This document shows positions 10,465 to 23,537 of a DNA stretch of 37,973 nt, one piece after another. The translations under genes were made by a program, and so were the position numbers. The notes beneath the pieces are model-generated. The model did no database searches and was not told the DNA's origin. It worked only from the letters and a program-made list of their open reading frames with translations. The stretch lies in IMG/VR virus record IMGVR_UViG_3300013212_000040, positions 1 to 37,973 of that record. The stretch is one strand, 5' to 3'. This DNA comes from a virus. Within the stretch, counting starts at the first letter, position 1; each line of letters starts with the position of its first letter.

Positions 10465-10938
10465 TCAGATGGTGCAGCCGGGGTGCAGCACCCTCTTGGC
10501 TGCGAGATAGGCTTGGTAGGCCGTTGCCGGGTCTTGGAACGAGCCGAGGTAGTGGGTCACTCGGTTGGCCTTGATGACCGCGCGGTAGGCACGGTCCTTC
10601 TTGTTCCAGTGCACACCTAGATAGCCGCTCTTGTTGTTTGACTTCGGCCCCTTGCGGTTCTGGCCATTGATCGCGTTTGAGACCTGGCGAAGGTTCTCGA
10701 TGCGGTTGTCAGAGCGGAAGCCGTTGATGTGATCAATCTGTTCCGATGGCCACTCTCCGTGGAAGTGAAGCCAGGCCAAGCGATGGGCACGATAGGCACG
10801 GCCATCGATCCTGATGCGGATGTAGCCGTTCTCCATGTAGGGCGTTCCAACCCTTCTGGAAAGCCTTTGCAGCAGGCCCGTTGTGGGGTCGTACCCGACC
10901 AGCGAACGAAGCTCGTCCGCCGTGAGCGTTGAGTTCAT
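10465..10938 (-). CDS. HNH homing endonuclease with AP2-like domain (copy 1)
   Basis: This 157-aa protein has an N-terminal YDPTTGLLQRL module, an HNH core (HRLAWLHFHG, then IDHINGFRSDNRIENLRQVS and an Asn/Lys segment), and a C-terminal AP2-type DNA-binding part (GYLGVHWNKKDRAYRAVI, LGSFQDPATAYQAYLAAK). Such stand-alone endonucleases cut a specific DNA site and spread by repair; they have no role in virion assembly. It is inserted between the tail tube gene and the chaperone gene, a place where lambda has nothing. Two relatives occur at 21347 and 22971. Only a weak ribosome binding site is seen. Confidence 0.9.
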   Translation of the reverse strand: MNSTLTADELRSLVGYDPTTGLLQRLSRRVGTPYMENGYIRIRIDGRAYRAHRLAWLHFHGEWPSEQIDHINGFRSDNRIENLRQVSNAINGQNRKGPKSNNKSGYLGVHWNKKDRAYRAVIKANRVTHYLGSFQDPATAYQAYLAAKRVLHPGCTI

Positions 10939-13031: not shown

Positions 13032-13589
13032 TCAGCCGTAGAGGCGCTGCCCGTCGAGCAGGCGCTCCCAGAGAGGGGAGATTTCCAGGGCCTTGGTCGA
13101 CGCTGCGTCTGGGTTGTTCACCCAGGCGGACACGGCGGCCTTGATGAAGAGCTTCACCGACTCGTCGACCTGTGCCGCACTGCTGGGGCCGGCCGTCAGG
13201 TCGATGCGCACGCGCGGCCCAGCTGCCACCTGTGGCAGCGTGGGCCAAGACGTGCCGAGGGCAGGCGCCAGGACCGTGCCGGCGCCTTCGGCTGCGAACA
13301 CGTAGGCCGAACCTGCAAGGTTTGCCCAGGCTGCGCCGTTCCAGTACGTGACAGCACAGGCGGTGGCCCCGTAGACCGGCAGCACGTCCTCCACATCCGG
13401 CCAGTCGGCCAGCTCAGTGCGCCACGCCTGGAGCCGGTAGAGGCGCCCGGTGATCTGCTCGGCCTGCTCGCGCGCGGACGTGATCAGGCCGCTGATGAGG
13501 GCGTCAAGGTCGCTGATGTCGACCCGGGCCGCCAGCTTGGCCTCGGCCAGGGTGACGGGCTCGTCGCCAGAGGTGGAGAGGCGTTGCAT
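13032..13589 (-). CDS. Head-tail connector protein, HK97 gp6-like
   Basis: This 185-aa protein begins with a helical EPVTLAEAKLAARVDISDLDA segment followed by LISGLITSAREQAEQITGR, the hallmark of gp6-like connectors that bind under the portal. A central beta region (AVTYWNGAAWANLAGSAYVF) and a C-terminal helical part (VDESVKLFIKAAVSAWVNNP) follow. It forms a ring between the portal and the head closure protein. Its neighbour on the capsid side is the beta-helix spike, which is not part of the usual module. Confidence 0.83.
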   Translation of the reverse strand: MQRLSTSGDEPVTLAEAKLAARVDISDLDALISGLITSAREQAEQITGRLYRLQAWRTELADWPDVEDVLPVYGATACAVTYWNGAAWANLAGSAYVFAAEGAGTVLAPALGTSWPTLPQVAAGPRVRIDLTAGPSSAAQVDESVKLFIKAAVSAWVNNPDAASTKALEISPLWERLLDGQRLYG

Positions 13590-13611
13590 GGTTACCGGCA
13601 GGGGATGGGAA

Positions 13612-15780
13612 TCAGTACTTCTTAGTCGGGTCAGAGAGCAACGACCAACTGTTCGCCGCCGTGCCCTGGCAGCTCACCAAGCCCGCCACACCGAGAGTGC
13701 CGGCCGCCGCGTTCGTGTTGCGCACGATGGCGCCATCCCAACGAGCCAGCTTGGTCACATCAACCGCGATCTCATGCCCATCGCAATACAGCGATGATCC
13801 AGATCCAGGCGTGTCTGATGCGATCCACGGGAATGTGTACGTGTAGTTCGGCGCGCCGCTGCTTTTGAGCATGGTCACAGCACCGCCCGTGCCAGTGCTG
13901 GAGAGCACGTTGTATGCACCGTAAGCGTTGCCGCGAGGGAGATAGCCCTGCATGCTGATCTGCACGCGCGCACCGTTGGCGTAGAACTGCAACACCGAAT
14001 TGCCGCCAAAGATGTTCTTGACTTGCAACCCATCGATAACAAGGTTCACATCGCCGGTGCTGCCGTTGCCAGTCACTGCATTGCCGCAGTTGGCAACCCA
14101 CATGTTGGCGATTGAGACGGCCGGGAACTGCCCTTGTCCCAATTCAAGCCCGGCCCGGCCTCCGTTGTCTCGGCGAGCATTGGCGCTGAAGTTATCCAAC
14201 TCCACCGACTCAAATTGCAGGGTCGTGGAGCTTGCGCTATTGGTTAGCAACCATGCACTCGTTGTGCTGCCTGCAAGCTGGTTATTGACGTTGCTGATCT
14301 TGATGCGACGGGCCGGGCTGTTGATCTTGACCAAGGCTCCAAGGGATGCCGTGTAAGGCATGTCGTTGGCGATGCGGTCGAACATCAGCACTTCATGGTT
14401 GAAGCCCTGCTCGCCCCAAATCAGCTCAGTGCCAGAACCAGACTGCAAGCCATGACGGATTCGGCTGAACTGGCCCAAGCCAATGTTTGTGTAGAACGAG
14501 AGCGTGCGGCCCGTCGTGGACTGCGGGCGGATGTCGTCAACCACCACGTCATTGATGACGCCACCGAAGCCGGGGCTTGGGAACGTGGCAAGGTACACCA
14601 CCGTCCCGCCGTTCACCATCACGGGCTTGACATCCTCAATGCGGATGCCGGTCATGGCGTAATTGCTGTCGATGGTGCCGCCCGAGACATACGTCCCTGG
14701 GTTCTGATCAAGCTCCACCACTGTGGAGCCAGCGCCAGCAGACAGAACGCGATAGTTGCCGTTCCAGGTCGATGGATTGACGCCCGCAATCTGCACAAAG
14801 TCGCCGACCGTTCCGACAGTGCCGCTAAACGTGAACGTGCCGACACCGTTGGCCCACGTCGCGCCCGTCAGGTTGGTGGTCGTCCCGGTGACGTTGCTGT
14901 AGACGGCCACGCAGTTACCGGCGTTGCCAGCCTGCACGTTGCCGGTGATCTTGCGAACCGTGATGTTGCGGATGGGGCCGATGTGCAGGGCCGGCGTGGT
15001 TGGGTTTAGCCAGTTGCTCACGTCCTTGACGTTCAGCGCAATGAAGTCGTCACCGGACAAGCCACCGATACGCTCGATCACCCCGTTGTTGCTGTTGCCG
15101 TGCACATGCACGCCATCTGCGCCAGCTTGTGTGCTGGTGACCCAGATGTCACGCACCAGGAAGTTGGTCGCGCTCGCAAGCAGGATGTGGTACTTGCGAA
15201 TATTGACGATCCGCAGGTTTTCAATCGTGAGCCCATCTACGTTGCAGAAATAGAGGCCCATCAAACGCACGTCGCTGGCGCCGCTCTGATTAAGCGTGTT
15301 GCCATCGATGGTGCCGCCACCGCCGACGTAGATATTGGTGTTGCCGGTCTGGTCGTTGAGATTGGCCAAGACAAGAGTGCGCGCACTGCCATCCGCCATC
15401 TTGAGCGTGGTCCCCTTGCCGATCAGCACCGTCGTGTTGGAGCCGATGTAGAGCGTGGCGTTGACCTGGATCGTGCCGAGATTGCCCGGGATAGAGACCA
15501 CACCGCCAGCGGTGATTGCGGCTTGCAGCAGCGCCGTGTTTGCAACCGCGGAACCAGCGCCAACGGCAAGACCCGAAATCCCACCCCCTGACACCAAGGA
15601 TGAAAGCGGGAGATCGTCCAGCGCAAATACTTCAATGAATTGCCCAGTCGCGATCAGCTGTGAAGCCTCCGTATCGCTTCGCTCTTCAGTCTGACCGGGC
15701 ATCCACACGCTCTGCTTTCCGGTCGTGGCCAGCTCCGGCCAGCGCTCGCGCGTCCCGGTGTACTTGATGGTCTTGGGCAT
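13612..15780 (-). CDS. Beta-helix (GH28/pectate-lyase-like) spike encoded in the head-connector module
   Basis: This 722-aa protein has three parts. Residues 1-52 (PKTIKYTGTRERWPELATTG, ending QLIATGQFIEV) look like the small head proteins encoded at this position in related phages. Residues about 68-290 form a right-handed beta-helix with GGTIDGN (154-160), GADGVHVHG (Asp222) and LSGDDFIALN (Asp244, Asp245), matching the first two acidic motifs of GH28 polygalacturonase-type enzymes. The family's GHG and RIK motifs are not evident. A beta insertion follows (about 300-370), then more helix turns and a C-terminal cap. It may digest or bind a host surface polysaccharide. Base composition is less GC-rich than its neighbours, suggesting acquisition. 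AAGGA precedes the ATG. Confidence 0.85.
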   Translation of the reverse strand: MPKTIKYTGTRERWPELATTGKQSVWMPGQTEERSDTEASQLIATGQFIEVFALDDLPLSSLVSGGGISGLAVGAGSAVANTALLQAAITAGGVVSIPGNLGTIQVNATLYIGSNTTVLIGKGTTLKMADGSARTLVLANLNDQTGNTNIYVGGGGTIDGNTLNQSGASDVRLMGLYFCNVDGLTIENLRIVNIRKYHILLASATNFLVRDIWVTSTQAGADGVHVHGNSNNGVIERIGGLSGDDFIALNVKDVSNWLNPTTPALHIGPIRNITVRKITGNVQAGNAGNCVAVYSNVTGTTTNLTGATWANGVGTFTFSGTVGTVGDFVQIAGVNPSTWNGNYRVLSAGAGSTVVELDQNPGTYVSGGTIDSNYAMTGIRIEDVKPVMVNGGTVVYLATFPSPGFGGVINDVVVDDIRPQSTTGRTLSFYTNIGLGQFSRIRHGLQSGSGTELIWGEQGFNHEVLMFDRIANDMPYTASLGALVKINSPARRIKISNVNNQLAGSTTSAWLLTNSASSTTLQFESVELDNFSANARRDNGGRAGLELGQGQFPAVSIANMWVANCGNAVTGNGSTGDVNLVIDGLQVKNIFGGNSVLQFYANGARVQISMQGYLPRGNAYGAYNVLSSTGTGGAVTMLKSSGAPNYTYTFPWIASDTPGSGSSLYCDGHEIAVDVTKLARWDGAIVRNTNAAAGTLGVAGLVSCQGTAANSWSLLSDPTKKY

Positions 15781-15846: not shown

Positions 15847-16050
15847 TTACTCGGCGGCCTTCTTGCGGCTCGGCTTTGCGGGCGCCGCGGGCTCGGAACC
15901 GACGATCTCGATGAAGCCCTCGTCGACAAGGCCGGCGTGTTCCGCCACCTCGTCGGAGACCTCCCGCGTTTCGTCGCTGGGCTGGAATTCCTCGACCTCG
16001 ACGCCACGGTGGGCGAAGGCGAAGGGCTTGATGACCTTGATCTGGGGCAT
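15847..16050 (-). CDS. Small head-region protein
   Basis: This 67-aa protein begins MPQIKVIKPFAFAHRGVEVE, has TREVSDEVAEHAGLVDEGFI, and ends in a Pro/Lys-rich tail. Its core resembles residues 1-52 of the adjacent beta-helix protein: both have a short beta start, an acidic stretch, a helix with EA or VAEHA, and a final GFIEI or GQFIEV. A virion-bound role near capsid or connector is inferred from position directly after the capsid gene. The ATG at 16050 is preceded by AGAGAG. Confidence 0.68.
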   Translation of the reverse strand: MPQIKVIKPFAFAHRGVEVEEFQPSDETREVSDEVAEHAGLVDEGFIEIVGSEPAAPAKPSRKKAAE

Positions 16051-16112: not shown

Positions 16113-17519
16113 TCAGGAGGCGGCGATCTTCAGGAGCTTGATGGCCTGCGTGTTACGCAGCTTGCCGCCCACGCGCTTGCGCACGTAGAACTTGACGAAG
16201 CCCTGCGTCGTGATCTCGTCGCGGGTGATGCGCATGCCCACACGGTCGGCGATCAGGTAGCCCTCGCGGAAATCACCGAACGCCAGCGAGAAGGCGTTGG
16301 CCGCAACCGCCGGCATGTCCTCGGCTTCCGTGATCGGGTAGCCCATGAACGTTGCCGGCTGGCCAGCGGAGACGGCCGGCTGCCACAGGTACTGGTTCGT
16401 CGTGTCCTTGTACTTGCGCAGCGCGGCCAGCACCAGCTTCGAGGTGACCCAGCGGGCATTCGTGCGGTAGCGGGCACGCAGCGCGTATACCAGGTCGTAG
16501 AACACGTCAGCGCTGGTCGGCAACGCGGCGGCCTGGCCCGAGGCGATGTACTGCAGCGTGCCGAAGGCGCGGGCGCTGTCAGCGGTGGTAACCGGGGTTG
16601 GGCCGGCCAGGATGCCGGTGGGCTTCTTGGTGCCGTTGCCGGAGACGAACGCAGCCCCCTCACCCTGGGCGATGGCTTCCGCCGCGCTCATGGTCAGCCA
16701 GCCCTCCACGTCGAAGAACAAGTCGTCGAGCGACTCTTCGGAGGCCTGCGGGCGGGCGGAGGCCATGCCAAAGGTCGGCGCCACTTCGTTCAGGTCGGGC
16801 GTGTTGGTCTGGTTGCGAGTGTCGGTTTCGCCGACCCACTCGAAGCCCGCGCCGTTGATGTCGAACAGCTCCTTGTAGTCCGGGCTGCCGACCGTGCGCA
16901 CCGTGGCAATCTGGCGGATCGGGCTGATGTCCACGGACAGACGCTGGATCTGGCGCTCGATGATCTCGGGCAGCGCGAAGCCGCCGGCCGAGCCGGTACT
17001 GGTCACGGTCTGCGTGGCGCGGGTTTCCCAGCCGTCATCACCGCCCAGAGCGGCGGCGTTGGCCTTCTTCAGCTCGCGCTGCTTGGCCTGCAGCTCCTGC
17101 GTGGCACGGATGTCGGACGGGTTGCGCACCCAGCCGGCGAAGGCCTGGCGGTACTCGGCCGCCTCCTTGGACTCGCCATCCTGGCGGCCCTTGGCGTCCA
17201 GCGCACCCGGGCGGGCCAGCTTGGTCTCCATCTTCTCCAGACGGGACTTCTGCTCGTTCAGGGCGTCCATGTGGCCGTCGATCTTGGCCAGCTTGGCGTC
17301 AAGGTCGGCGGTGGAGTTGCCGGCCTTGACAGCCTCCAGCCGGGCGTCGTTGGTCTTCTTGTACTCGTCGAACGCCGTGGCGATCTTGTCGAGCGCTTCG
17401 GCGACGGACTTGAGGGAGGGCTCTTCACGCTTCTCGTAGGTGGCCAGGGCCAGGGCCTTGGCTTGGAAAGCGGCGAAGTGGGCGGCCATCAGCATGGCCA
17501 TGGGGCGATTGCGAGACAT
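16113..17519 (-). CDS. Major capsid protein, HK97 gp5-like
   Basis: This 468-aa protein has an N-terminal helical scaffold-like delta region of about 120 residues (LKSVAEALDKIATAFDEYKK, then a coiled segment) followed by the HK97-fold shell domain: GGFALPEIIERQIQRLS, SPIRQIATVRTVGS, GFEWVGETDTRNQ, and late segments WVTSKLVLAALRKYKD and LIADRVGMRITRDE. The delta region is expected to be removed by the prohead protease encoded upstream, so no separate scaffold gene is needed. The order portal, protease, capsid supports the call. Its gene is flanked by hairpins on both sides. Confidence 0.94.
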   Translation of the reverse strand: MSRNRPMAMLMAAHFAAFQAKALALATYEKREEPSLKSVAEALDKIATAFDEYKKTNDARLEAVKAGNSTADLDAKLAKIDGHMDALNEQKSRLEKMETKLARPGALDAKGRQDGESKEAAEYRQAFAGWVRNPSDIRATQELQAKQRELKKANAAALGGDDGWETRATQTVTSTGSAGGFALPEIIERQIQRLSVDISPIRQIATVRTVGSPDYKELFDINGAGFEWVGETDTRNQTNTPDLNEVAPTFGMASARPQASEESLDDLFFDVEGWLTMSAAEAIAQGEGAAFVSGNGTKKPTGILAGPTPVTTADSARAFGTLQYIASGQAAALPTSADVFYDLVYALRARYRTNARWVTSKLVLAALRKYKDTTNQYLWQPAVSAGQPATFMGYPITEAEDMPAVAANAFSLAFGDFREGYLIADRVGMRITRDEITTQGFVKFYVRKRVGGKLRNTQAIKLLKIAAS

Positions 17520-19687: not shown

Positions 19688-21354
19688 GCGGCGGACTCCC
19701 AAAAGCTGCGCTGCGGCTGCGGATTGCGGCTCAGCAGTTCCGTCGCGTTGAGTGTTGCCATGAGGGGGTCAATCTTTCCGGTGCCGCTCGCCTGCTTGGT
19801 GATCAGCACACTGTTTGCGCGCGGCTCGATGCGCGCATTCCCGACGCACCAGGCCATGAGCCGGGTGCCGCCGTGGGTGAACTTGCCTTCGGCCAGCTTC
19901 CGCTCGGCCGTCTTGATGGCACCAGCCAGCCGCCAGCCCTGGCTGACGCCGACGATGCGCTCCAGCGGGAAGCCGCGGCCGGTGATGGCATCGACGATGG
20001 AGCCGATACCCGCCGGGTCGCAGCCGATCTTGTCGAGCAGCCCGGAGGCTTCGCACTGCTCCACGACATCGGCCACCTGCTCCACGTCCTGGCCGATCTC
20101 GTCAACCAGGGTGAGCGTGCCTTCCTTCTGCAGGTCCAGCAGCAGCGGCGCCTCGCTCTTGCGGAGCTGCAGCACCGAGACATGGGCCCAGGCGTGCGCC
20201 CAGTGCAGCCACTGGCCGGACTCGGCCTCGCGGCCCAGCACGGACAGGCCCAGCAGGTCGTCCAGGCCGCCGCCGTCAATGCCGATCTCGACCACGTCGC
20301 TGCGGTTGAGCAGGTCGTCGAGCGTCAGCGCCTTGCCGGCCGCCTCCCACCAATCCGCGCCGCGCCACCGGTCGGCGCGCAGGGCCAGGCCGATCTCCAC
20401 GTTGCCGTGCTTCGCCATGAAGCCACGGAACGACTCTTCGCCCTCTTCCTTGGCCTTGGTGTACTCGCGCTCGAGGAAATCCCGGGCCACCGAGGCGCCC
20501 AGGTTCGGGTTGACCATGGCCAAGTTCTCGAGCAGAAGGTGCTCTTTCGTCCTGACCATCTCCGGCGGGTGCTCAAAGAGCACCGGGACGAAGCGCGGGT
20601 CATGGATCTCGCCGTCGCGCACGCGCCGCGCGTAGTCCAGCTTCTTCTTGAACACGCCCACCGGCGGCTCGTCGGACTGCGTGGTCAGGTAGATCACGAA
20701 GCCTTCCGGCCGACTGGCCAGGCCGCCGAGCGCCTCGCGGAGCATGTTTTCCGCGTTGGCCTGCTTGCCCAGCAACCACAGCTCGTCGATCAGCGTGCCT
20801 ACTGACTTCTTGCCGGCCACCGTCGCCGAGTCAGTGGCCACGACCTTGAGCGTGGCGCCCTTCTCGCGGTGCGTCAGCGTCCGAATTGCGCCTTGCACGT
20901 TGATGAGCTCGCTCAGTTCGCTGACGCCGCCGTCCTCGTCGAACTGCACCATGTCGCGCGCCGGGCCGAAACTGTTGTTCGCGACCTCAAGGGTGGGCGC
21001 CAGGATGGTGAACTCGGCCGACTGGCGCCAATTGCGGATCAGGCTGGTCAGCATGATCGAGGCCGCCAGGCCCGACTTGAAGTTCTTCTTCGGGATCAGG
21101 ACGAACCACTCAGTAATGAGCCGCCGTCCGCTCTCCGCGTCATAGGCGCCGAAGATCGACGCCGCCAGGTCAAAGATCCACTGGTTGCAGGCGTCGGCGA
21201 TCCTGGGGCTGCCAGGCGCGTCGACGATGCGCAGCTCGCGCAGCACCTCGAGCGCCGCCTCCGCCTCCTCCGGGAAGATCGGCGGCGGGATGATCGACCG
21301 CCCCGTCTTGAGCCTTTCAGCCCAATCGGGGCAGGAGGTCTGCCATTCAGGCAC
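19684..21354 (-). CDS. terL: Terminase large subunit
   Basis: This 556-aa protein is the ATPase/nuclease motor for DNA packaging. The N-terminus (PEWQTSCPDWAERLKTGRSI) and LRIVDAPGSPRIADACNQWI are typical of the HK97-like TerL family. A Walker A variant (LIPKKNFKS, about 86-94) and Walker B (GTLIDELWLLG, Asp190-Glu191) are visible, and the nuclease domain begins at VEIGIDGGGLDDLLGLSVLG. The start is a GTG at 21354, eight bases inside the end of the HNH gene; a longer in-frame reading upstream is out-of-frame HNH sequence. No clear ribosome binding site precedes the GTG, so translation may depend on coupling to the HNH gene. Confidence 0.93.
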   Translation of the reverse strand: MPEWQTSCPDWAERLKTGRSIIPPPIFPEEAEAALEVLRELRIVDAPGSPRIADACNQWIFDLAASIFGAYDAESGRRLITEWFVLIPKKNFKSGLAASIMLTSLIRNWRQSAEFTILAPTLEVANNSFGPARDMVQFDEDGGVSELSELINVQGAIRTLTHREKGATLKVVATDSATVAGKKSVGTLIDELWLLGKQANAENMLREALGGLASRPEGFVIYLTTQSDEPPVGVFKKKLDYARRVRDGEIHDPRFVPVLFEHPPEMVRTKEHLLLENLAMVNPNLGASVARDFLEREYTKAKEEGEESFRGFMAKHGNVEIGLALRADRWRGADWWEAAGKALTLDDLLNRSDVVEIGIDGGGLDDLLGLSVLGREAESGQWLHWAHAWAHVSVLQLRKSEAPLLLDLQKEGTLTLVDEIGQDVEQVADVVEQCEASGLLDKIGCDPAGIGSIVDAITGRGFPLERIVGVSQGWRLAGAIKTAERKLAEGKFTHGGTRLMAWCVGNARIEPRANSVLITKQASGTGKIDPLMATLNATELLSRNPQPQRSFWESAA

Positions 21355-21856
21355 TGCGCGGCACCGGCTGGAACGGGTGGGCCTGGGCCTTCGCCGCCAG
21401 ATAAGCGCTGTGCGCCTCTTCCGGGGTGTCGTACCCGCCAAGGTTCTCGGAGCGCCCGCCGACCCTGATCCCAGCACGCCACTTGCGGGCATGACGGTCC
21501 CAGGACACACCCATGTAGCCGCTCTGGTTGTTGCGCTGGCGCTTGCGGTTGTGCTGGTTCTCAGACCAGTTCGCCTCGCGCAGGTTCTCGAGCCGGTTGT
21601 CAGTGCGCACGCCGTTGATGTGGTCCATCGCCACCGCCGGCCAGCGGCCGTGGACGTACAGCCACGCCAACCGGTGCGCCTTGTGGCGCTTGCCGTTGAT
21701 GGTGATGACGACGTAGCCGCCGAAGTCGACGGTGCCTGCGACCTTGCCGACCACACCGCGCTTGCCGCAGCGCTTGATCCAGGTGAAGTGGCCTGTGCCG
21801 CTGTCGTAGTGCAGAAGGTTCTTTAAGCCTTCCGCAGTAAGCTGCTGTCCGTCCAT
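21347..21856 (-). CDS. HNH homing endonuclease with AP2-like domain (copy 2)
   Basis: This 169-aa protein starts MDGQQLTAEGLKNLLHYDSG. It has the HNH core HRLAWLYVHGRWPAVAMDHI, NGVRTDNRLENLREANWSEN and the AP2-like GYMGVSWDRHARKWRAGIRV. It sits exactly between the small and large terminase genes, and its 3' end overlaps the TerL start. A strong AAGGAG precedes the ATG at 21856. It belongs to the same family as the proteins at 10465 and 22971. A homing role is inferred; its recognition site may lie in the terminase region of phages that lack it. Confidence 0.9.
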   Translation of the reverse strand: MDGQQLTAEGLKNLLHYDSGTGHFTWIKRCGKRGVVGKVAGTVDFGGYVVITINGKRHKAHRLAWLYVHGRWPAVAMDHINGVRTDNRLENLREANWSENQHNRKRQRNNQSGYMGVSWDRHARKWRAGIRVGGRSENLGGYDTPEEAHSAYLAAKAQAHPFQPVPRSA

Positions 21857-21884
21857 GAAGACTCCTTGCCAGTCGGAATGGAAA

Positions 21885-21925
21885 GAGCCCGCCGGGTGGT
21901 GACACACACGGCGGGCTCGCTTTTT
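21885..21925. terminator. Bidirectional hairpin between TerS and the HNH gene
   Basis: A perfect 10-bp stem, GAGCCCGCCG (21885-21894) with CGGCGGGCTC (21909-21918), is followed on the plus strand by GCTTTTT and on the minus strand by TTTCC. The minus-strand T-run is short, so termination of late transcription would be partial. Its arms contain the AGCCCGCC/GGCGGGCT sequence seen at two other places. Confidence 0.6.
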
Positions 21926-21932
21926 GGGGCTG

Positions 21933-22253
21933 CTACTTGTTGTTGACGATGAGCTTCGGCGGGGCCGAGGCCGTGAACTTCGAGGCGACCTTCTTGGCGC
22001 GCTCGGCAACCTCTTCCTTCTTGCCGCCGTCGCCCTTCTTGGTGTGTGTGTACTGAACCGCCGCGATGGCGGCACGCACCTGCAGCGCTGTCGCCTCGAC
22101 CTCGCCCAGCGCCACCTTCTGCAGCATCTCGAGCATGTCCATCGGCGGCAGCGCCGTGGGCTCAGGCTTCGGTTTCGGCTTCCTGCCGGCCCCCGGCCGT
22201 GCCCCTCCTGAGTTAGGCCGGGGCCCTCCCGACCTCCCCTTGACGCCTGCCAT
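21933..22253 (-). CDS. terS: Terminase small subunit
   Basis: This 106-aa protein begins MAGVKGRSGGPRPNSGGARP, with GAGRKPKPKPEP following. This basic Gly/Arg/Pro-rich start is common in HK97-type small terminases. Then comes a helical MDMLEMLQKVALGEVEATAL segment with AAIAAVQYTHTK and a Lys/Glu-rich end. TerS recognises the packaging site and regulates TerL. AGGAA precedes the ATG at 22253. It is shorter than many small terminases but complete at both ends. TerL follows after the inserted HNH gene. Confidence 0.85.
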   Translation of the reverse strand: MAGVKGRSGGPRPNSGGARPGAGRKPKPKPEPTALPPMDMLEMLQKVALGEVEATALQVRAAIAAVQYTHTKKGDGGKKEEVAERAKKVASKFTASAPPKLIVNNK

Positions 22254-22970: not shown

Positions 22971-23537
22971 TCAAGCCCTTGCCGGGCTGTTCGCCGAATC
23001 GAGTTGCTGATGGTGCGCCACTATAGCGGCTGCAGTCCTGATGTCAAACGCTGCCGGGTTGACGGTGTGAAGTCGGGCGGCAGCAGCCCTATATGCAAGG
23101 CTTGCCTCTTCTGCGGCTGCAAAGTACCCAAGATGCTGCTGCTTGCCGTTGAGCATGATCGACGCCTGCCAACGGTTGCGCGACTTGCTCCACGAGACAC
23201 CTCGAAAGCCGGATGTGTTGCACCTCTGAAGAAGCTTGTTCTGTTCGTTTTCGGAGCGGGTCGCCAACCGAAGGTTGGAAATCTTGTTGTCGGTCCGCCG
23301 CCGATTAATGTGGTCCAAGTCACTTGCCGGCCAGCACCCGTGTACATACAGCCACGCGAGCCTGTGATTCAGATAGCTCTTGCCGGAGATCTTCGTTCTC
23401 AGATAGCCAGTGCCGTTGTCAACTCCGGCTTCATCGCCGGCTCGCGCCGCTCCCCTGTTGCCGCGCCACTTGAACACCCCAGTTTCTGGGTCGTAATGCA
23501 GTAGCGCCTTGAGGGTTTCTTGTGTCAGTTCATTCAT
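22971..23537 (-). CDS. HNH homing endonuclease with AP2-like domain (copy 3)
   Basis: This 188-aa protein begins MNELTQETLKALLHYDPETG. It carries HRLAWLYVHGCWPASDLDHI, NRRRTDNKISNLRLATRSEN and the AP2-like GFRGVSWSKSRNRWQASIML with LGYFAAAEEASLAYRAAAAR. It lies nine bases after the stop of the Q-like gene and before the packaging HNH gene. GAAGGG precedes the ATG at 23537. It has a 35-residue C-terminal extension (ending LDSANSPARA) lacking in copies 1 and 2, and its DNA is less GC-rich than the flanking genes. Confidence 0.9.
   Translation of the reverse strand: MNELTQETLKALLHYDPETGVFKWRGNRGAARAGDEAGVDNGTGYLRTKISGKSYLNHRLAWLYVHGCWPASDLDHINRRRTDNKISNLRLATRSENEQNKLLQRCNTSGFRGVSWSKSRNRWQASIMLNGKQQHLGYFAAAEEASLAYRAAAARLHTVNPAAFDIRTAAAIVAHHQQLDSANSPARA

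Follow-up and report, generated by a model that had tools for sequence, protein, structure and literature searches.

The 722-residue open reading frame (ORF) that separates the capsid gene from the gp6-like adaptor gene in this phage probably encodes a virion-borne spike, made up of an N-terminal domain that would dock on the head or neck and a swappable, putatively glycan-active beta-helix body. The N-terminal domain recurs at a fixed locus in other phages, the bodies behind it are interchangeable, and the breakpoints between conserved and exchanged DNA can be located. On the basis of these sequence comparisons the locus resembles a cassette in which glycan-active bodies displayed on the virion can be swapped, and the head or neck of the particle probably displays interchangeable tools for passing bacterial surface coats.

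Gene order and the 722-residue ORF

The window, i.e. the whole stretch of DNA that was analysed, is an IMG/VR virus record of 37,973 nucleotides. Its late gene block runs on the minus strand in the order terminase large subunit, portal, protease, major capsid protein (MCP), 67-aa gene, 722-aa ORF, gp6-like adaptor, neck protein, tail terminator, tail tube and tape measure. The features that matter here are the following:

16113..17519, minus strand: HK97-fold MCP, 468 aa (phrog_10, 1.6e-72)
15847..16050, minus strand: separate small head gene, 67 aa, of a family found directly 3' of the MCP gene in most relatives
13612..15780, minus strand: candidate spike ORF, 722 aa, composed of an anchor-like N-terminal domain, a linker, a beta-helix body and a cap at the C-terminus
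15631..15780, minus strand: N-terminal domain, residues 1-50, shared with some 20 proteins that other phages encode at this locus
15568..15630, minus strand: linker, residues 51-71, with the motif LVSGGG (LVSGAG in L083 and L093)
15043..15119, minus strand: codons of the conserved acidic residues Asp222 (ADG) and Asp244-Asp245 (GDD)
13612..13770, minus strand: C-terminal cap, starting near residue 670 (HEIAVDVTKLARWDGAIVRNTNAA...), to which the terminal parts of Pitbull gp24 and the ENT1 ORF correspond
13032..13589, minus strand: gp6-like head-tail adaptor, 185 aa (phrog_442, 4.9e-10)

The ORF is intact and its reading frame runs without interruption. The PHROG matches of its neighbours place it between the capsid and gp6-like genes, as an earlier note on this DNA had proposed, and the deviating base composition that the note pointed out was recovered as well: GC is 59.8% and GC3 0.76, versus 63-70% and 0.83-0.91 for all neighbouring structural genes. 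The N-terminal 165 bp equal the remainder of the ORF in composition. A direct search of viral contigs yielded no close relatives of the whole ORF, and the full protein matched nothing in NCBIfam, in PHROGs or in a PDB sequence search. The sequence has no apparent hydrophobic N-terminal signal, which makes secretion of the protein as a free enzyme unlikely. A structured leader between the 67-aa gene and the spike gene was not significant (z -0.69).

The note had further likened residues 1-52 to the small head protein that is usually encoded at this position. This identification is not supported, as that protein is the product of the separate 67-aa gene, which had been overlooked. Residues 1-52 and the 67-aa protein show no detectable sequence relation (hhalign probability 0.1; cross-scores no better than shuffles), and homology between the two was rejected at the sequence level after profile comparison and shuffle test. 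Elsewhere in the window, an HNH endonuclease gene (10465-10938; phrog_99) and two ORFs that are HNH endonuclease-like by sequence resemblance (21347-22075 and 22971-23537) are interspersed with the genes for virion structure and packaging.

The beta-helix body

The Pfam GH28 model (PF00295) aligns with residues 146-250 at an E-value of 7.3e-5 and 22.5 bits, where the curated cut-off for membership is 22.9. Within this region the spacing of GADG (Asp222) and GDD (Asp244-245) fits that of the NTD and DD motifs of GH28 (around 22 residues), with NTD reading GAD. Of the GHG and RIK motifs, which in GH28 follow downstream of DD, neither is present; His266 lies near the expected place of the former but outside a GHG. 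The body has two distant full-length relatives, gp24 of Arthrobacter phage Pitbull and an ORF of Enterobacter phage ENT1, both of which retain Asp222, Asp244 and Asp245 (in SDT/SDG and GDD) as well as the C-terminal cap; the third catalytic histidine is conserved in neither. Both differ from the window protein in their N-terminal parts, and the Pitbull gene is located after the lysis genes, distant from the head genes. A third phage match, SPO1L3, covers residues 78-209 only.

Structure prediction, proposed earlier as a check, gave a confident model for the N-terminal domain (see below) and a low-confidence one for the body, with an overall pLDDT of 54, values under 40 both at residues 260-370 and beyond residue 612, and poor quality past residue 250. 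The region of the three aspartates was modelled at pLDDT 56-73, at which their placement in three dimensions is unreliable. A Foldseek search with the body model returned no significant match, the nearest folds being beta-helix enzymes and tailspikes. Given the Pfam score below cut-off, the poor model and the non-significant fold matches, we do not assign the protein to GH28. The suggestion of a beta-helix with a GH28-like acidic site thus stands as far as the positions of the motifs and their conservation in two relatives are concerned, and falls short on the Pfam cut-off and the missing RIK.

These same shortcomings, together with the unconserved histidine, would suit a virion adhesin, the beta-helix of which binds glycans without cleaving them and aids attachment, as is the case for T4 Hoc or the head fibres of phi29. 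Of the alternatives considered this one survives best, but we hold it to be unlikely, as the three aspartates are retained in two distant relatives and the sibling cargos described below belong mostly to enzyme families.

The N-terminal domain is tied to the head/neck module

Residues 1-50 are predicted to form a compact beta-alpha-beta domain (AlphaFold pLDDT 95-98 in the full model and 91 alone), for which no sequence match was found in Pfam, PHROG, PDB or NCBIfam. Using a profile of residues 1-50, three further pattern scans, a genome-contig scan and whole-genome scans, we recovered around 20 further distinct proteins with this domain, all of them from uncultivated phages or Burkholderiaceae-type genomes, including a Roseateles MAG (L093), which points to a group of hosts. 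The genome scan of the host-like family gave 2 positives among 401 genomes, and the scan at the level of the class returned the seed genome only.

In each of the 19 distinct loci in which the MCP gene was visible the domain comes directly after it (together with the small gene), and the encoding within the head module that characterizes decoration proteins and head fibres therefore applies to all of these as well as to the window. The sole exception to the gene order is L111, where the domain is found between the gp6 adaptor and a P22 gp10-type head closure gene (phrog_578, PF11134), and where the neck is P22-like rather than siphovirus-like; the domain thus stays within the head/neck module in a phage that has a different kind of tail. 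Taken together, the 19 MCP-adjacent loci and the position in L111 imply that the domain tracks the head/neck module and not the type of tail. Divergence of the domain was uncorrelated with that of the MCP (Mantel r -0.23), and likewise with that of the protease, and weakly tracked that of gp6 (r 0.20, p about 0.04), so that co-divergence did not single out a docking partner.

This distribution bears on the possibility of an ordinary tailspike from a misplaced gene: its N-terminal domain would bind a tail protein, and only the site of the gene would be unusual. The relation of the body to proteins of tailspike-like architecture in other phages and the presence of tailspikes among the best, non-significant, Foldseek neighbours are in line with such an origin. 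Nevertheless, we consider it rather improbable: the domain occurs only within the MCP-gp6 interval or at the position just after gp6, even in L111 with its P22-like neck, locus-independent scans found it nowhere outside the head/neck locus and no copy among tail genes, and the window ORF, lying between MCP and gp6, lacks the tail-linked position of a tailspike gene.

The predicted fold resembles that of small phage structural proteins, a statistically weak resemblance that includes the C-terminal domain of lambda gpFI (2lsm, probability 0.89, E 0.34). The gene for gpFI occupies the same relative place, right after the MCP gene and before the head-closure gene, and gpFI has been proposed to bind the capsid (gpE) lattice (PMC4856287). 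An analysis of the protein content of lambda virions did not detect gpFI (PMC10721106). By analogy, capsid binding of the gpFI kind would fit capsid contact by the N-terminal domain. On the other hand, gpFI is a packaging chaperone and not a spike, and its sequence is unlike that of the domain; homology between the two was set aside as lacking sequence support, with gpFI being a weak fold neighbour only. Also rejected, as evidence of MCP adjacency, was a BFVD match to A2I2Y0, a 51-aa protein of Vibrio phage VP882: going by length, a single gene of 51 aa was seen in the VP882 record, namely gp27, which precedes the tail sheath gene and lies away from the MCP gene.

Exchange of bodies and breakpoints

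The view that the N-terminal anchor is a separable module was supported and extended, as the domain is shared with some 20 other phage proteins of the head/neck locus that have unrelated, mostly glycan-active bodies. These include GDSL/SGNH bodies in L020, L074, L083, L089, L093 and L095 (E-values of 1e-8 to 8e-22), a GH26-like body in L006 and beta-helix bodies in L072 and L097, as in the window, next to bodies that matched no assigned family. In a split arrangement, a short protein with the domain is followed by a separate enzyme gene: in L096 a 96-aa protein precedes a gene for a SASA esterase (8.5e-26), and the gene 3' of the domain protein encodes a GH5 enzyme in L091 and a PhoD-like protein in L015. 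Stand-alone copies at the same locus, for which a search among relatives had been advised, thus exist and have the enzyme gene next to them.

Comparison at the DNA level located the breakpoints. Homology between the window and L083-L086 ends at window position 15578; for L084 it spans the MCP gene, the small gene and the N-terminal domain up to this position (residue about 67) and restarts at 13563. With L074, homology ends at 15643 and restarts three bases away from the stop codon, at 13609. L095, L096 and L097, which derive from one metagenome, have 239 bp over the domain in common at 97-99% identity and then continue in unrelated ways; L095 was used with care as its contig looks chimeric. 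This contig (IMGVR_UViG_3300020045_001687, also the source of L071) contains two MCP genes in opposite orientation, probably as a result of chimeric assembly, and its spike gene is followed by an ORF of low GC that begins like PhoH. The body encoded at L097 51-1010 is related to the beta-helix body of the window (phmmer 3.9e-5), and the L097 ORF is cut short, ending in a stretch of unusual composition, possibly due to an assembly frameshift.

A mechanism can be proposed that would connect these elements. The 50-residue domain would dock on the head shell or the neck during assembly and in this way bring the protein into the particle. The body, probably a trimeric enzyme that binds or cleaves glycans, would point outward and may bind or trim the surface polysaccharide of the host before or during tail-mediated infection. 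The presence in the particle, the head or neck position, the trimeric state, the enzymatic activity and the role in infection are what we infer from gene order and sequence relations. The locus would then act as a cargo slot, in which phages with related head genes retain the docking domain and exchange the body, presumably through recombination events in the linker and at the gene's 3' end. A broader reading, plausible yet held more tentatively than that of a spike in this particular phage, is that the 50-residue plug, undescribed in the family libraries searched, could be a general head/neck display slot of Burkholderiales phages, which exchanges unrelated glycan-active enzymes (beta-helix lyases/hydrolases, SGNH and GH26, and as split genes GH5, PhoD and SASA) on the virion, without involvement of the tail or the receptor-binding proteins on it.

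Searches for depolymerases and deacetylases carried by phages usually focus on the tail genes. If the above holds true, the head/neck slot would provide phages with a second, tail-independent route to vary the chemistry they can address at the host surface, and the N-terminal domain would offer a sequence handle to find enzymes of this kind in phage genomes that lack annotation. A further, testable question is whether head enzymes help particles to cross a capsule or biofilm ahead of adsorption via the tail.

The closest proven analogue is the capsid turret of the archaeal tailed virus HFTV1, which consists of two proteins, the base gp30 and the head gp31, and has a polysaccharide-deacetylase-like domain (PMC12494034). 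The turret is proof that a glycan-deacetylase-like part can be mounted on a head of the HK97 type. Both systems would have a glycan-active-type domain attached to an HK97-fold head via a separate docking part, as judged here from the genes. Unlike the two-protein turret, the window type is usually a single chain of docking domain and body, the latter being exchanged from phage to phage. Non-essential head-borne parts that are thought to bind carbohydrates and to aid attachment have also been described in T4 (Hoc), SPP1 (gp12), T5 (pb10) and phi29 (gp8.5) (PMC7602432). In contrast to the proteins discussed here, these are binding proteins of Ig-like, collagen-like or coiled-coil type, and have no beta-helix or hydrolase bodies.

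The MCP-gp6 interval across relatives

With the MCP alone as bait, 80 loci were collected from IMG/VR, and the statistics on the interval were based on the 49 dereplicated loci in which both MCP and gp6 could be located. The interval measured 143-552 nt in 25 loci, 861-924 nt in three and 1.6-5.1 kb in 21, and the N-terminal domain was present in 8 of these 21 long intervals. No cargo is found between MCP and gp6 in 25 of the 49, and the nearest isolated relatives, Bcep176, VW-6S and vB_PaeS-D14E, likewise have a single small gene between MCP and connector, without cargo. Such variable presence, the low GC of the spike ORF relative to its neighbours and the abundance of hydrolase families among morons (the phrog_6102 'lipase' of L083 is filed under moron) could point to moron cargo, the product of which would have its function inside the host cell or on it, or be freed at lysis to modify exopolysaccharide, and would form no part of the virion, but this is very improbable, as it leaves the in-frame, separately folding and conserved domain tied to head genes unexplained, and as no signal sequence is apparent and the gene has the orientation of the late structural operon.

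Besides the candidate spikes with the N-terminal domain, the interval accommodates a second class of cargo that lacks it (L029, L034, L036, L040, L041, L048, L049, L051, L052, L056, L060 and L061). The bodies in this class include Laminin_G_3, Kelch and beta-helix types, and the last ORF before gp6 has a short Arg-rich end (for instance RPA..QRNNR or RPPRIARTTR), which is possibly another anchor. Finally, in L005 (1795-2361) and L028 (4284-4880), with MCP-gp6 intervals of 861-888 nt, a small Cys/His-rich ORF lies beside the small head gene or replaces it.
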